The translations under genes and the position numbers were made by a program. From assembly GCF_029961155.1 (NCBI RefSeq), contig NZ_JASBRH010000026.1, positions 1 to 59,766 on the forward strand: DNA of 59,766 nucleotides, given 5' to 3'. Source of the DNA: Pontibacterium granulatum (GTDB lineage: Bacteria > Pseudomonadota > Gammaproteobacteria > Pseudomonadales > Balneatricaceae). Of the stretch, positions 381 through 16,952 are shown piece by piece; the stretch's first letter is position 1; the number at the start of each line of letters is the position of its first letter. The notes beneath the pieces were generated by a model, which searched no databases, was not told where the DNA came from, and was given only the letters and a program-made list of their open reading frames with translations.

Positions 381-572
381 CCATCTCTTTAATCACTGTC
401 TTGCTGCCGGTCGTTTTGTCTTTGTTAGATTCCACCTGCCTTAGGCCAGAATGGAGAGACCGGTCCTCTACTCAAGATAAAGCATGTGCCATGCCAGCCT
501 TAGCTTTTATCTATAACATCTTGAAAACGTAGTACTTGTCACCCAAAGGCCAAAGCCGGGGCACACAGACGC
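381..572. other. Intergenic, no gene seen
   Basis: First part of a 343-base gap between the tautomerase and crotonase genes. No open frame with coding character, no tRNA and no clear promoter was seen. Confidence 0.5.
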
Positions 573-13064: not shown

Positions 13065-13943
13065 TTAACCACTAGAGGATACGTTGGCAGCCAGACGCTT
13101 ACTTCTTCGCCACTGAAACACCCCATGTATCAGCAAGGTGCTGACCACGACAACGCCACCCTGAATTGCTTGGGTTGACGGGACTTCATCAAGAAAAATC
13201 CAGGTCCAGAGCGGGCCCGTGGCGGTTTCAAGTAGCATCAGCATGCCGACTTCGGCTGCAGGAATACGGGTTGGTCCGAGGGTGATCATGATAAAGGCGA
13301 GCGGCACTACAACAAAACAAAGCAGTACCATCCACCCCCACGCTGCACCTTGTAAGCTGAACGGAGAACCCAGCACCAGACTGACTGCAGCAATCATCAA
13401 TCCGGACGTAATCAATGCCGGTGTCATATCTCGATGCGAACAAGCTCGATCGTTAACGAACTTACCTGCCAGCATCAATGCGACGCCCAGCGCTAACAAA
13501 TCACCCAGTATGCTTGGGCTGTTCCACGATCCTGCCAGCACCCAGAAGATTGCCCCCATACAGATCACAATCGCAATCCAGGTAATCGGCGGTGATTTCT
13601 CACCTAGGAAGATGCGGGACATGATGGCGGCAAACAGTGGCTGAGCGCATATGATCACCAGCACGTTGGCCACCGAGGTGAGATTCACGGCAGAGACAAA
13701 GAAGATTGCGTTAACCGCAAACAAGACGGCTGAACGAATAAAGGCCGCATCGAAGCTGAACAGCGGCTGGTCTGGTTTACGCACACGACACCAGATCAGT
13801 ACCGCCACGCTCATCAATATACCGCGCCAGAACAGCAGATCGAAGGATTCAGAATGGATCAGTCGGATCAGGAGCGCATCGAAACTGAGTACCAGTACGC
13901 CCAACGCGGTGAGCGTAAACCCTTTCATGTACTCCGTTTTCAA
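13065..13943 (-). CDS. EamA/DMT-family transporter
   Basis: A 292-residue inner-membrane permease with about ten hydrophobic segments in two EamA halves, as in RhaT/RarD-type exporters. The first half ends near LAGSW and the second half starts near SILGDLLALGVAL. The motifs NVLVIICAQPLFAAIMSRIFLGEK and LLETATGPLWTWIFLDEVPS are the matching ends of the two repeats. The substrate is unknown; the family commonly exports amino acids or metabolites. Confidence 0.88.
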   Translation of the reverse strand: MKTEYMKGFTLTALGVLVLSFDALLIRLIHSESFDLLFWRGILMSVAVLIWCRVRKPDQPLFSFDAAFIRSAVLFAVNAIFFVSAVNLTSVANVLVIICAQPLFAAIMSRIFLGEKSPPITWIAIVICMGAIFWVLAGSWNSPSILGDLLALGVALMLAGKFVNDRACSHRDMTPALITSGLMIAAVSLVLGSPFSLQGAAWGWMVLLCFVVVPLAFIMITLGPTRIPAAEVGMLMLLETATGPLWTWIFLDEVPSTQAIQGGVVVVSTLLIHGVFQWRRSKRLAANVSSSG

Positions 13944-13994: not shown

Positions 13995-16952
13995 TTAGTC
14001 CGGTTTGCGTTTGCGATCCGCCTGCTCGTCAAAGTCTTCAGGCTTTTCGTCGAGGCCCATCATCCACTCCTCTTCCTTAGCCTCTTCGCCTTCACTAATC
14101 GCATCCACCACATCGGATGCAGCTTCAGGAATAGACTCAACAACGGCAACCGCCACATCCATCGCGTTGTCTGGAGATACTTCGGACAGACGCTGAACCA
14201 ACTCAACTGCCGCTTCGTGGGATCCTTCCTCTTCTCCCTTGATCACCTGCTCAGACTCGTCCTGTGCATCTTCAGGTACACCTGCTTCATCATTCTCAGT
14301 TTCATCCAGCTCAGCGGCATCACTCATCGTGCTCGCCACCTCAGCAGCCACGGATGCGGCTGCATCCGGCTCTGCCTCAACAACCGCCACAGCTACATCC
14401 ACCGCCTGATCAGGCGCTACTTCAGACAGACGCTGTACCAACTCAACTGCAGCCTCATAGGTGTCCTCAGATTCTTCTACAGAAGAATCACTTTCCGCTC
14501 CAGAAACAACCTGCTCCTGAGTTTGCGCCTGCGGCTTGTCTGAATCAGCCTCTTCATCCAATTCGCTCCAGGTACTGGCAACTTCAGAAGCCACAACGGC
14601 CGCAACTTCTGGTTCAGCTTCTACAACAGCAACCGCGACATCAACGGCCTGGTCAGGCGCCACTTCAGACAGACGCTGCACCAACTCAACCGCTGCATCC
14701 TGCAGCTCTTCAGAAGATTCATCGCCTATAGATTCTTCAGTTAGCGCTTCGCTGACGTCCGATGTTTCTTCCGGCGCACCGTCAGCACTTTCATTCTCAG
14801 TCGAATCACTCCAGGTATTCGCAACTTCGGAAGCAACAGCCGCAGCCGCCTCGGGCTCCGCCTCGACTACCGCAACAGCCACGTCCACTGCCTGATCCGG
14901 TGCAACTTCAGCCAAACGCTGAACCAGCTCTGCCGCCCCCTGCTGAATCTCTTCTGGAGATACATCTGGCGCTTCAATCGGCTGATCGCTCTGTGCAACT
15001 TCAGCTTTGTGGCTACCCAGCTCAGAGCGGCGAGAATATGCAGCTTCCAGCTCGTCCAATGAAGAGCCCTGTTTCTCCTCTTCACTGATTTCGACCTCCG
15101 CCGCCGCTGCCAAGAGATCACGATGCAGATACAACTGCGCTACAGATACCGCACTATCAGGTACGGCATCCACAAATGTCGCTGCCACATCCAGTGCTTG
15201 ATCTGGAGACGCATCCCAAAGCGTTGCGGCGATGTTTACCGCATCCGCTTCACTGGTATCACCTTCTCGATCTGCCGGACGCAGATTTTCACGGTACTCA
15301 GCCAATACCTGGGCATAGTACCGAGCTACCTCTACCGCCGATTCTGGTGCATGCTCAGCAGCAATACGGGCCATTTCAACGCGCTGTTCAGGCAACGCGC
15401 GACCAATCTCCGCCGCTACGCTCACAACTTGCTCCGGATACCACTCTGCAAGTTTCTTAACCAATTCAGACGCTAATTCAGGTCGGCTGGTTACGATCGC
15501 ATTGGTGACCTCCAGAATCTGGAACGGGACCACGTCATTCATCGCTTCATACAGGCTGAGTACATTCAGGTTCTCAACCTTGGCGACCGCACCCGCTAAC
15601 TCTGTCGCCCGCAGCGGATTGCTCTTGATGATCGCTTTTGCCACACGAACGGCTTCTATCGGATCGTACTCGGCGACACCCATAATGGTTTGGGCCTCAG
15701 CACTAAGAGGCGCTTCACGCTCTACGTATTCCGTACGCGGGTCAAGATCTACAATAGCTGGAACTGCAGCCCCCTGCATAACAAAGCTTTCCTGATCCTC
15801 AACAGGCAGTGCTTCACGTACTCGCATGCGATAGATAACAAATACAGCGAGAGCGACCTGGATAACAGCCAGGAAGTAGAACAACGCACTGTTACCAAAC
15901 ACCTTCATCACCCATGAAGCACTGTATGGACCAATAACGCCCCCCAGAGAAAACGCCAGGATCATACTGCCCATCGCGGCAACCATCTCGTTCTGGCGCA
16001 ACTTATCGAACGCCTCGGAGATACTCAGCGGGTAGGTACACGCGATGATGCCACAGGTGATACCGGTGGCAACAAACACTGCCCAGATCATACCCAGAGG
16101 TGCGGCAATGATCACCAGCAGACAATTGACGGCAGATACCGCCAACAGCCCAAGCAATACAGTACGACGGTCGAAGCGATCCGAAAGATAACCAACCGGG
16201 AACTGCAGCAAGAATGCACCCGCGATTGCCGCACCCACGTACAGTGACAACTGGAACCCTACGATGCCATAGTCCTTCGCAAATAACGGCAAAAGGTTGA
16301 AGCTGGCCGAGTAGATAACACCCGACACTAAGCAACTAACCACCCCCAGAGGAGAAATTCTGAACAGTGTTCGAAGCGGCATTGAAGTAGCATCTTCAAT
16401 CTTTGGCCCTTTGTGGCGGCTCATTACCACAGGCACAACCGCCAGACTAAGTAACACGCCGGACACGACAAACAGAGTGCTTGTCGCAGGATCGGAGAAG
16501 TTCATAAAGAACTGTCCGACAAACAGGCCTGCCAACACCACTGCGTTATAGATCGCCAGGACCTTGCCACGTGTATTCTTGGTGGAGGCGTCACTCAGCC
16601 AACTTTCCATCGCAGCAAATGCACACGCATTGCAGAAGCCGACCACCAAACGCATCCCCCCCCACACATACGCATCATCCACGAGGCTGCAGACAAGCAT
16701 ACTGGCACCGCCCATCGACACACAGCCAGCGAACATGCGGATATGCCCCGCACGCATAATAAGATTCTTACTGTAGATTGCGCCCAGCAACAGGCCGACG
16801 AAATAGAGGGATTGCACCAGACCGATCGCATCGGTACTGATTCCATCCAACTCCATTCGCACCGGCATCAGTACGTTCATCAAACCGTTCCCAAGGAACA
16901 GGATGAAACAGCTGATAAACAGCGAAATGAGCGATATAAATGTCGCAGTCAC
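13995..16952 (-). CDS. MFS permease fused to a ~600-residue repeat tail
   Basis: A 985-residue protein. Residues 1-376 form a 12-helix major-facilitator permease (NLIMRAGHIRMFAG and GYLSDRFDRRTVLLG are the usual loop motifs; YcaD-like). Residues 377-985 are hydrophilic and should be cytoplasmic. From 431 to about 550 a Pro begins almost every 15th residue (431, 446, 476, 491, 506, 521, 536), each followed by an E/D/L-x-A-x-x-V-A helix. More pairs with the same 15-residue step occur at 583/598, 685/700, 766/781, 847/862 and 927/942. The last four lie in near-identical blocks separated by acidic linkers. I know of no MFS family with this tail. Confidence 0.85.
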   Translation of the reverse strand: MTATFISLISLFISCFILFLGNGLMNVLMPVRMELDGISTDAIGLVQSLYFVGLLLGAIYSKNLIMRAGHIRMFAGCVSMGGASMLVCSLVDDAYVWGGMRLVVGFCNACAFAAMESWLSDASTKNTRGKVLAIYNAVVLAGLFVGQFFMNFSDPATSTLFVVSGVLLSLAVVPVVMSRHKGPKIEDATSMPLRTLFRISPLGVVSCLVSGVIYSASFNLLPLFAKDYGIVGFQLSLYVGAAIAGAFLLQFPVGYLSDRFDRRTVLLGLLAVSAVNCLLVIIAAPLGMIWAVFVATGITCGIIACTYPLSISEAFDKLRQNEMVAAMGSMILAFSLGGVIGPYSASWVMKVFGNSALFYFLAVIQVALAVFVIYRMRVREALPVEDQESFVMQGAAVPAIVDLDPRTEYVEREAPLSAEAQTIMGVAEYDPIEAVRVAKAIIKSNPLRATELAGAVAKVENLNVLSLYEAMNDVVPFQILEVTNAIVTSRPELASELVKKLAEWYPEQVVSVAAEIGRALPEQRVEMARIAAEHAPESAVEVARYYAQVLAEYRENLRPADREGDTSEADAVNIAATLWDASPDQALDVAATFVDAVPDSAVSVAQLYLHRDLLAAAAEVEISEEEKQGSSLDELEAAYSRRSELGSHKAEVAQSDQPIEAPDVSPEEIQQGAAELVQRLAEVAPDQAVDVAVAVVEAEPEAAAAVASEVANTWSDSTENESADGAPEETSDVSEALTEESIGDESSEELQDAAVELVQRLSEVAPDQAVDVAVAVVEAEPEVAAVVASEVASTWSELDEEADSDKPQAQTQEQVVSGAESDSSVEESEDTYEAAVELVQRLSEVAPDQAVDVAVAVVEAEPDAAASVAAEVASTMSDAAELDETENDEAGVPEDAQDESEQVIKGEEEGSHEAAVELVQRLSEVSPDNAMDVAVAVVESIPEAASDVVDAISEGEEAKEEEWMMGLDEKPEDFDEQADRKRKPD
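14091..14936 (-). repeat. Four ~240-bp in-gene repeats in the MFS tail
   Basis: Four blocks encode almost the same 40 residues (AVELVQRLSEVAPDQAVDVA, then VAVVEAEPEAAA): residues about 673-715, 753-796, 834-876 and 914-954. The starts are 80-81 residues apart. The linkers between them differ and are rich in Glu, Asp and Ser, so the core is conserved and the linkers drift. The last block is the most diverged. Confidence 0.9.

Follow-up and report, generated by a model that had tools for sequence, protein, structure and literature searches.

Appended regulatory domains on bacterial transporters of the major facilitator superfamily (MFS) include the C-terminal domain of ProP and fusions to CBS, cyclic-nucleotide, PAS and UspA domains, and the extended cytoplasmic C-terminal domain of ProP matters in osmotic activation (accessible part of PMC10710835). 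In yeast, Rgt2 and Snf3 carry cytoplasmic signaling tails on MFS cores of 12 transmembrane (TM) helices, according to the available portion of PMC10876965. In HubP, an acidic cytoplasmic region contains imperfect repeats that differ in number among close species, and a client domain lies at the C-terminus; an acidic composition is reported for both HubP and FimV (available sections of PMC12918733). Here, we describe a gene within a 59,766-nucleotide stretch of DNA from Pontibacterium granulatum (contig NZ_JASBRH010000026.1, positions 1–59,766; hereafter the window) that encodes a 985-residue MFS permease (window 13995–16952, minus strand, GTG start) with a C-terminal extension of ∼600 residues, longer than the permease core itself. 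The tail has three parts, an alpha-solenoid, a series of three-helix beads on acidic linkers and a C-terminal motif segment. Tentatively, with a probability of about 0.42, we read it as a multivalent scaffold in the cytoplasm by which the permease is clustered, tethered or tuned, HubP- or ProP-like and yet neither.

The GTG start of the gene aligns with the starts of its relatives, and the single open frame together with the long tails of relatives rules out an artefact or frameshift as the origin of the tail. A preliminary description of this DNA had placed prolines at residues 431, 446, 476, 491, 506, 521 and 536, 15 residues apart with asparagine at 461, and further pairs with the same step at 583/598, 685/700, 766/781, 847/862 and 927/942; all of these are present in the translation. 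The accompanying motif, P-[ED]-x-[AV]-x-x-[VL]-[AV], is a loose one, as only three of the seven phased prolines of 431–536 (491, 506 and 536) fit it strictly when judged by eye. Pro–Pro pairs at a lag of 15 number 11 in the tail (shuffled mean 1.4, largest 7; 5000 shuffles), and the residue-similarity autocorrelation over residues 415–570 gives z = 6.7 at lag 15 (largest shuffled z = 4.6). Because lag 15 is also the top lag in all eight of the relatives' tails tested (z = 4.0–7.8; the values for loci L080 and L054, 4.0 and 4.1, lie barely over their largest shuffled values of 3.8 and 3.9), the 15-residue period is not a product of chance. Over residues 590–985 the autocorrelation peaks at lag 81 (z = 11.5; largest shuffled 4.3), and this period is a second layer of organization, made of bead-plus-linker units, that the preliminary description had not named. 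Neither period was detected by autocorrelation in the permease part (residues 1–376).

Residues 415–612 are almost gapless in an alignment of 12 proteins, and AlphaFold2 (AF2), run on the alignment of this region (A1), predicted an alpha-solenoid of 13 helices with a predicted local distance difference test (pLDDT) score of 84.3 and a predicted template modeling score (pTM) of 0.72. The solenoid with regular helices that had been suggested for the tail is thus what the model gives, at a pLDDT of 84. Nine of the 13 predicted helices begin at phased prolines (431, 446, 476, 491, 506, 521, 536, 583 and 598), and such short, proline-broken helices speak against a coiled coil (no coiled-coil predictor was run). 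Alignment A1 and a further alignment, A2, comprise 11 of 13 loci, with the fragments L011 and L012 set aside and L005 entered without its C-terminus. The full-length model shows the beads as helical triplets that extend into their linkers, the linkers between being of low confidence. The whole tail (residues 381–985, 605 residues) has a net charge of −112, with linkers that are 24–44% acidic. The earlier idea of a rigid helical scaffold holds only in part: it suits the AF2-predicted solenoid of ∼200 residues (415–612), whereas the other ∼370 residues form separate beads on low-confidence acidic linkers, so that a rigid scaffold would cover about one-third of the tail.

A tail profile (A3, 213 positions) was built from 24 of the 45 tailed proteins in the permease tree described below. 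In the window protein, matches of the four later beads to this profile are confined to positions 151–210, at its very end (the last 50 to 60 positions); these four ∼45-residue three-helix beads therefore seem to have been copied from the three-helix unit that closes the solenoid. The short sequence DPR occurs in the linker following the permease in 45/45 tailed proteins, and LDPR or IDPR in four of the 15 tail-less outgroup proteins examined. At the far end of the tail, 23 of the 45 tailed proteins have the motif [LIVM][DNESTK]x[KR]P among their final 110 residues, compared with a mean of 1.3 and a maximum of 5 in 300 shuffles.

The number of beads after the hinge ranges from 0 to 6 across the 45 tailed proteins, and the beads evolve under purifying selection. 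Comparison of the window gene with L001 gave ratios of nonsynonymous to synonymous substitution rates (dN/dS) of 0.07 (permease), 0.10 (solenoid), 0.20 (hinge and bead 0), 0.17 (interior beads with their linkers) and 0.08 (last bead with the C-terminus); dS exceeds 1 in all of these regions and is saturated for the linker, so the values are rough. The values that could be computed against L017 are 0.09 for the permease, 0.07 for the linker, 0.15 for the hinge and bead 0, and 0.23 for the interior. Within the window protein, the interior beads are 86–89% identical as protein and 72–78% identical as DNA, with dN/dS of 0.02 and 0.05 for the two of three interior pairs in which dS is unsaturated. 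Near-identity as protein, divergence as DNA and low dN/dS together indicate that the protein sequence of the interior beads is held by selection; with differences at 22–28% of DNA positions, recent DNA duplication without protein selection was rejected. Bead identities between proteins, compared for nine of the 45 tailed proteins (one L024 bead is out of register by one residue), are 58% for first with first, 66% for last with last, 40% for first with last and 57% for middle with middle beads, and the first and last beads retain position-specific sequence. Interior beads are more similar within a protein than between proteins in six of the seven proteins with at least two of them (the exception is L006, 50 versus 55), which suggests that they were duplicated or homogenized within lineages.

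Searches with the whole protein and with the tail profile revealed that the tail forms a conserved family joined to the permease, and also that homologues without it exist, among them 13 outgroup proteins and two proteins within the tailed clade. The whole-protein query matched 94 of 99 genomes of the family and 234 of 293 of the order, but many of these matches, judging from the rows listed, are short proteins aligned via the permease only. The tail profile (E ≤ 0.001, own genome counted each time) matched 54/99 genomes at the level of the family, 14/293 of the order, 2/274 of the class and 12/299 of the phylum, and in its own genome it finds this protein only (E ≤ 1). Eleven loci outside the family were looked at (L154 was not judged, and the phylum-level matches in genomes G661 and G883 were not included): three of them (L099, L148 and L149) encode tailed permeases, the long protein of L113 (tail-profile E = 3.3e-4) belongs to a different kind, and six further loci are taken up below. 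A single genome, G095, carries tailed permeases at two loci, L079 and L080 (975 and 634 residues), which fall on separate branches of the tree (there L026 and L080), and tail matches at two places were also seen in G039, G052, G072 and G084. A viral origin of the tail was considered and set aside, as a BFVD search returned 240 matches at E ≤ 10 and none at E ≤ 0.001.

The permease-only tree holds 60 proteins, the window protein and 59 of 92 relatives, once repeated entries of the same gene, near-copies and contig-end fragments had been left out; 13 tail-less relatives served as outgroup, and their long branches were flagged. The tree separates 45 tailed and two tail-less proteins from the 13 tail-less outgroup proteins with branch support of 100/99, and a group supported at 99/91 unites the two tail-less proteins, L074 and L075, with L001, L017 and the window protein. 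On its simplest reading, the tree would imply one gain and one loss of the tail, two changes sufficing. The tail profile has no match at E ≤ 0.001 in the genomes of the tail-less pair (G016 and G076). A TauE/SafE gene lies upstream of the permease and divergent from it in the window and in L001, whereas its relative in L074 and L075 (53% and 50% identity) is convergent (L074:6918-8910, L075:6939-9007) and has its stop within 10 bases of the permease stop, where the tail would start. Loss of the tail thus goes together with a rearranged locus. Between the window gene and tail-less L074, the permease dN/dS is 0.08, like that of tailed L001 (0.07) and L017 (0.09), and a tail-less relative that keeps its permease under like constraint suggests that the tail is separable from basic function.

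The permease core matches Pfam MFS_1 well above threshold (129 bits against a cut-off of 33.4, E = 2.6e-37), and its helix pattern in the full-length model, the mean pLDDT of which is only 59, is compatible with 12 TM helices. The motif B arginine, R101, and D258 are each present in 60/60 proteins, and motif A in loop 8–9 reads GYLSDRFDRR (both motifs as defined in the accessible part of PMC4601019). Fourteen charged, His, Asn or Gln positions of the permease are at least 90% conserved among the 45 tailed proteins; at 13 of them most of the 13 tail-less outgroup proteins have the same residue, and N219 is shared by none. Since these polar residues are common to tail-less relatives, the window permease looks like a working transporter. 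The nearest curated model is NCBIfam NF002962 (PRK03633), which aligns with residues 13–374 at 138.7 bits, far under its equivalog cut-off of 361. This model presumably stands for Escherichia coli YcaD; the window protein resembles YcaD over the aligned core and departs from it beyond, as the model is 382 positions long and hence has no comparable tail. YcaD is named as a predicted member of the BC3310/UMF-2 (DHA4) exporter family in the accessible part of PMC6055358. With those exporters the window permease shares the MFS fold and the motif B arginine, and an acidic residue at position 116, near the TM4 region, is present in 60/60 proteins. The UMF-2 marker, motif A' of loop 2–3 (E-r/k-P-L-x-r/k-x-G-x-r/k-P-x-I; accessible part of PMC4601019), is absent from loop 2–3 of the window protein, which reads GAIYSKNLIMRAGHIRMFAG.

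The tails of the window protein and seven relatives were scanned on their own, as had been proposed, and no Pfam or NCBIfam model exceeded its curated cut-off in any of the eight. One subthreshold match is to TIGR02514, the YscP type III needle-length determinant, which scores 30 bits on bead 1 (residues 668–714, E = 4.7e-7), or 33.2 bits (E = 5.1e-8) when the tail is scanned by itself; it was rejected as a family assignment, being under its cut-off of 76.5 and found in one of the eight tails only, that of the window protein. Pfam INTS1_R4 appears in four of the eight tails at 17.7–21.5 bits (cut-off 27), and T7SS_EccA1_N, which we take to be TPR-like, in one of 24 solenoid members (E = 8e-5). 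The window solenoid matches no Pfam family, and no TPR, HEAT or ARM repeat model exceeds its cut-off in the eight whole tails. ProP is not among the 25 NCBIfam families listed for the window protein (a weak match to the ProP model, E = 0.0065, was found for the relative L088), and neither the periplasmic LysM domain nor the C-terminal FimV TPR domain that mark HubP and FimV is among its 10 Pfam families or the NCBIfam families listed. By sequence, the best PDB chain for the A3 profile is a FliG fragment (5tdy, E = 0.005). By structure, a Foldseek search of the solenoid against the PDB gave 500 matches at E ≤ 10, the best at 0.029 and none at E ≤ 0.001; high in the ranking are designed helical repeats, Wolbachia CidA and TPR-like proteins, and TM-scores are at most 0.41 among the 50 matches listed. 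A PHROGs scan of the tail returned five families, the best at E = 0.0066. We read the subthreshold matches as probably what acidic, alanine-rich helices bring. No published account of such a tail was found among the open-licence papers listed on 15-residue helical repeats, MFS tails and helical-repeat extensions, Nitrincolaceae and YcaD.

Six of the phylum-level A3 matches (L150–L153, L155 and L156) are not permeases and contain helical-looking, alanine/valine-rich repeats of 15 residues, with a top lag of 15 or 30 in 6/6. Four are short repeat proteins with a signal-peptide-like start, judged by eye (L150:1114-2328, L151:1321-2175, L152:1210-2187 and L156:1051-1872); in the other two (L153:1-2343 and L155:1-2040), the repeats follow another region, which matches Pfam FecR in L155 and looks similar by eye in L153. 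That FecR match aside, no Pfam family was found in the six at E ≤ 0.01; subthreshold NCBIfam matches are FliH over part of the repeats in L156 and Lsa33 in L155. Given the signal-peptide-like start of four of these proteins and the other leading region of two, they probably sit in a different compartment than the permease tail. They resemble the tail in their 15-residue helical-looking repeats and differ in not being permeases, and they may or may not share an origin with it; the repeat is apparently an uncatalogued class.

Our interpretation of the tail as a scaffold builds on the computed sequence anatomy, conservation and selection, on the tail-less pair nested among tailed proteins, and on the predicted solenoid and beads. 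An MFS permease of a YcaD-like group would have gained a C-terminal extension in which 15-residue helices make up a solenoid and beads, differing in number, follow on flexible acidic linkers, often with a short motif at the end. The tail would lie on the cytoplasmic side, as we infer from the MFS fold, where the solenoid may hold a binding platform at the membrane face. The beads could stack on solenoids or beads belonging to adjacent permeases, or they could take up a soluble partner, and a client may be docked by the motif at the C-terminus. The permease would thereby be clustered, positioned or tuned, with the tail dispensable for transport itself. Several observations weigh against this interpretation. 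The full-length model has a mean pLDDT of 59 and a pTM of 0.39; the strict C-terminal motif is absent from 22 of the 45 tailed proteins, and a looser pattern reaches 35/45 at a high chance level (shuffled mean 9.9, maximum 17). Three of the 45 have no bead, which makes beads nonessential to whatever the tail does, and the identity between first beads scarcely exceeds that between middle beads. Convergence can produce alanine-rich helical repeats. Finally, no recurrent neighbor emerged as client or regulator, with at most nine of 30 neighborhoods per cluster among the 25 clusters listed (antisense-overlapping clusters excluded).

Since beads and solenoid end consist of one and the same unit, neighboring tails could join end to end, and a bolder, rather unlikely version of the scaffold would make the transporter a membrane organizer, its tails forming a cytoplasmic lattice or condensate with bead number as valency, and the proline-phased helix an uncatalogued repeat class on both membrane sides across the phylum. 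The likeliest rival of the scaffold, though itself unlikely, is osmotic or ionic-strength gating as in ProP, in which the acidic tail would change its fold or membrane contact with salt or crowding and so switch the permease. The net charge of the tail fits such a switch, as do the named hosts, among them Pontibacterium, Neptunomonas and Osedax symbionts, which we take to be marine. ProP provides a precedent in the same superfamily (accessible part of PMC10710835), but the predicted solenoid with its proline-broken helices speaks against a coiled coil, two relatives placed inside the tailed clade lack the tail, and acidity is likewise reported for HubP and FimV (available sections of PMC12918733).

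A tail whose beads do nothing specific, in which the last unit of a small ancestral solenoid duplicates easily and bead number drifts in neutral or weakly useful expansion, would accommodate the range of 0–6 beads and the position of the interior beads and linkers (0.17 and 0.23), with the hinge and bead 0 (0.20 and 0.15), at the upper end of the dN/dS values; we consider it improbable, as dN/dS is well under 1 in every region with unsaturated dS and the interior beads have stayed nearly identical as protein while diverging as DNA. A transceptor, its core sensing a substrate and its tail signaling to a cytoplasmic regulator, has its precedent in Rgt2 and Snf3 (available portion of PMC10876965), and the motif found in 23 of the 45 tails could serve such signaling; it is likewise improbable, however, for a permease that shares its polar residues with tail-less relatives and so looks like a working transporter, and no regulator gene is found in more than nine of 30 neighborhoods among the clusters listed. 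That sequence searches overlooked a known helical domain in the tail (TPR, HEAT, armadillo, FliG-like or YscP) we regard as very improbable: the TIGR02514, INTS1_R4, T7SS_EccA1_N and FliG matches and the helical-repeat proteins that head the Foldseek ranking all point that way, but those with stated cut-offs fall under them, TIGR02514 is confined to one of the eight tails, and no PDB match reaches E ≤ 0.001, with TM-scores not above 0.41 among those listed.

The features of the protein are collected in Table 1. The gene neighborhood was also tried as a guide to function and set aside, as no cluster listed exceeds nine of 30 neighborhoods once those overlapping the permease antisense are excluded. 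An EamA-type transporter gene (window 13065–13943, minus strand) starts 51 bases past the permease stop and is possibly co-transcribed; it is not among the recurrent neighbors listed. A scan for promoters and terminators was uninformative, with five and four sites against 3.4 and 4.2 expected by chance.

Table 1. Segments of the tailed permease, in order from the N-terminus.
Feature	Residues	Window position	Strand	Basis or remark
MFS permease core	1–380	15813..16952	minus	Pfam MFS_1, model helices, conserved polar residues
Linker with QESFVMQ...LDPRTEY	381–414	15711..15812	minus	Mostly low pLDDT
Alpha-solenoid	415–555	15288..15710	minus	AF2 on A1, 15-residue period, near-gapless alignment
Solenoid helices (predicted)	418–429, 431–444, 446–457, 464–474, 476–489, 491–504, 506–519, 521–534, 536–555			
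RPADR hinge	556–566	15255..15287	minus	RPAD-like motif (loose pattern) in 42/45 tailed proteins
Bead 0 (solenoid's final three helices)	567–614	15111..15254	minus	AF2; part of A3 matched by later beads
Linker, net charge −9	615–664	14961..15110	minus	Low pLDDT at 613–625 and 648–663
Bead 1	665–714	14811..14960	minus	A3 match, E = 2.0e-8; helices in full-length model
Acidic linker, net charge −12	715–746	14715..14810	minus	Low pLDDT at 720–744
Bead 2	747–795	14568..14714	minus	A3 match, E = 6.3e-9; helices in full-length model
Acidic linker, net charge −11	796–829	14466..14567	minus	Low pLDDT at 803–829
Bead 3	830–876	14325..14465	minus	A3 match, E = 2.7e-8; helices in full-length model
Acidic linker, net charge −13	877–908	14229..14324	minus	Low pLDDT at 882–910
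Bead 4 (last)	909–955	14088..14228	minus	A3 match, E = 3.9e-10
C-terminal segment with EEWMMGLDEKPE	956–985	13998..14087	minus	C-terminal motif pattern

An MFS tail that is longer than its permease, with a 15-residue helical repeat, variable beads and a charge of −112, thus lies under every Pfam and NCBIfam cut-off in eight tails, and may organize or regulate a transporter in a manner so far undescribed. L074 and L075, which lack the tail, branch inside the tailed clade and have a rearranged locus; they are a natural control that makes what the tail adds to the permease directly testable. The finding further directs attention to a class of helical repeats, as yet without a name, among proteins of signal-peptide-like and FecR type. 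Among the described systems, Rgt2 and Snf3 have the same plan of an MFS core with a tail (12 TM helices in the yeast proteins, a pattern compatible with 12 here), whereas the present protein is bacterial and its tail is different. ProP is an MFS protein with a modulating C-terminal domain, an arrangement that resembles that of the window protein (accessible part of PMC10710835), but the tail here is predicted to be a solenoid followed by acidic beads, ∼600 residues long, and nothing in the model resembles the coiled coil of ProP. With HubP and FimV the window tail shares a long acidic region, repeats that vary in number (as in HubP) and a separate C-terminal element, presumably on the same side of the membrane, given the MFS fold; it differs from them in that the anchor is a whole permease and the repeats are proline-phased helices.

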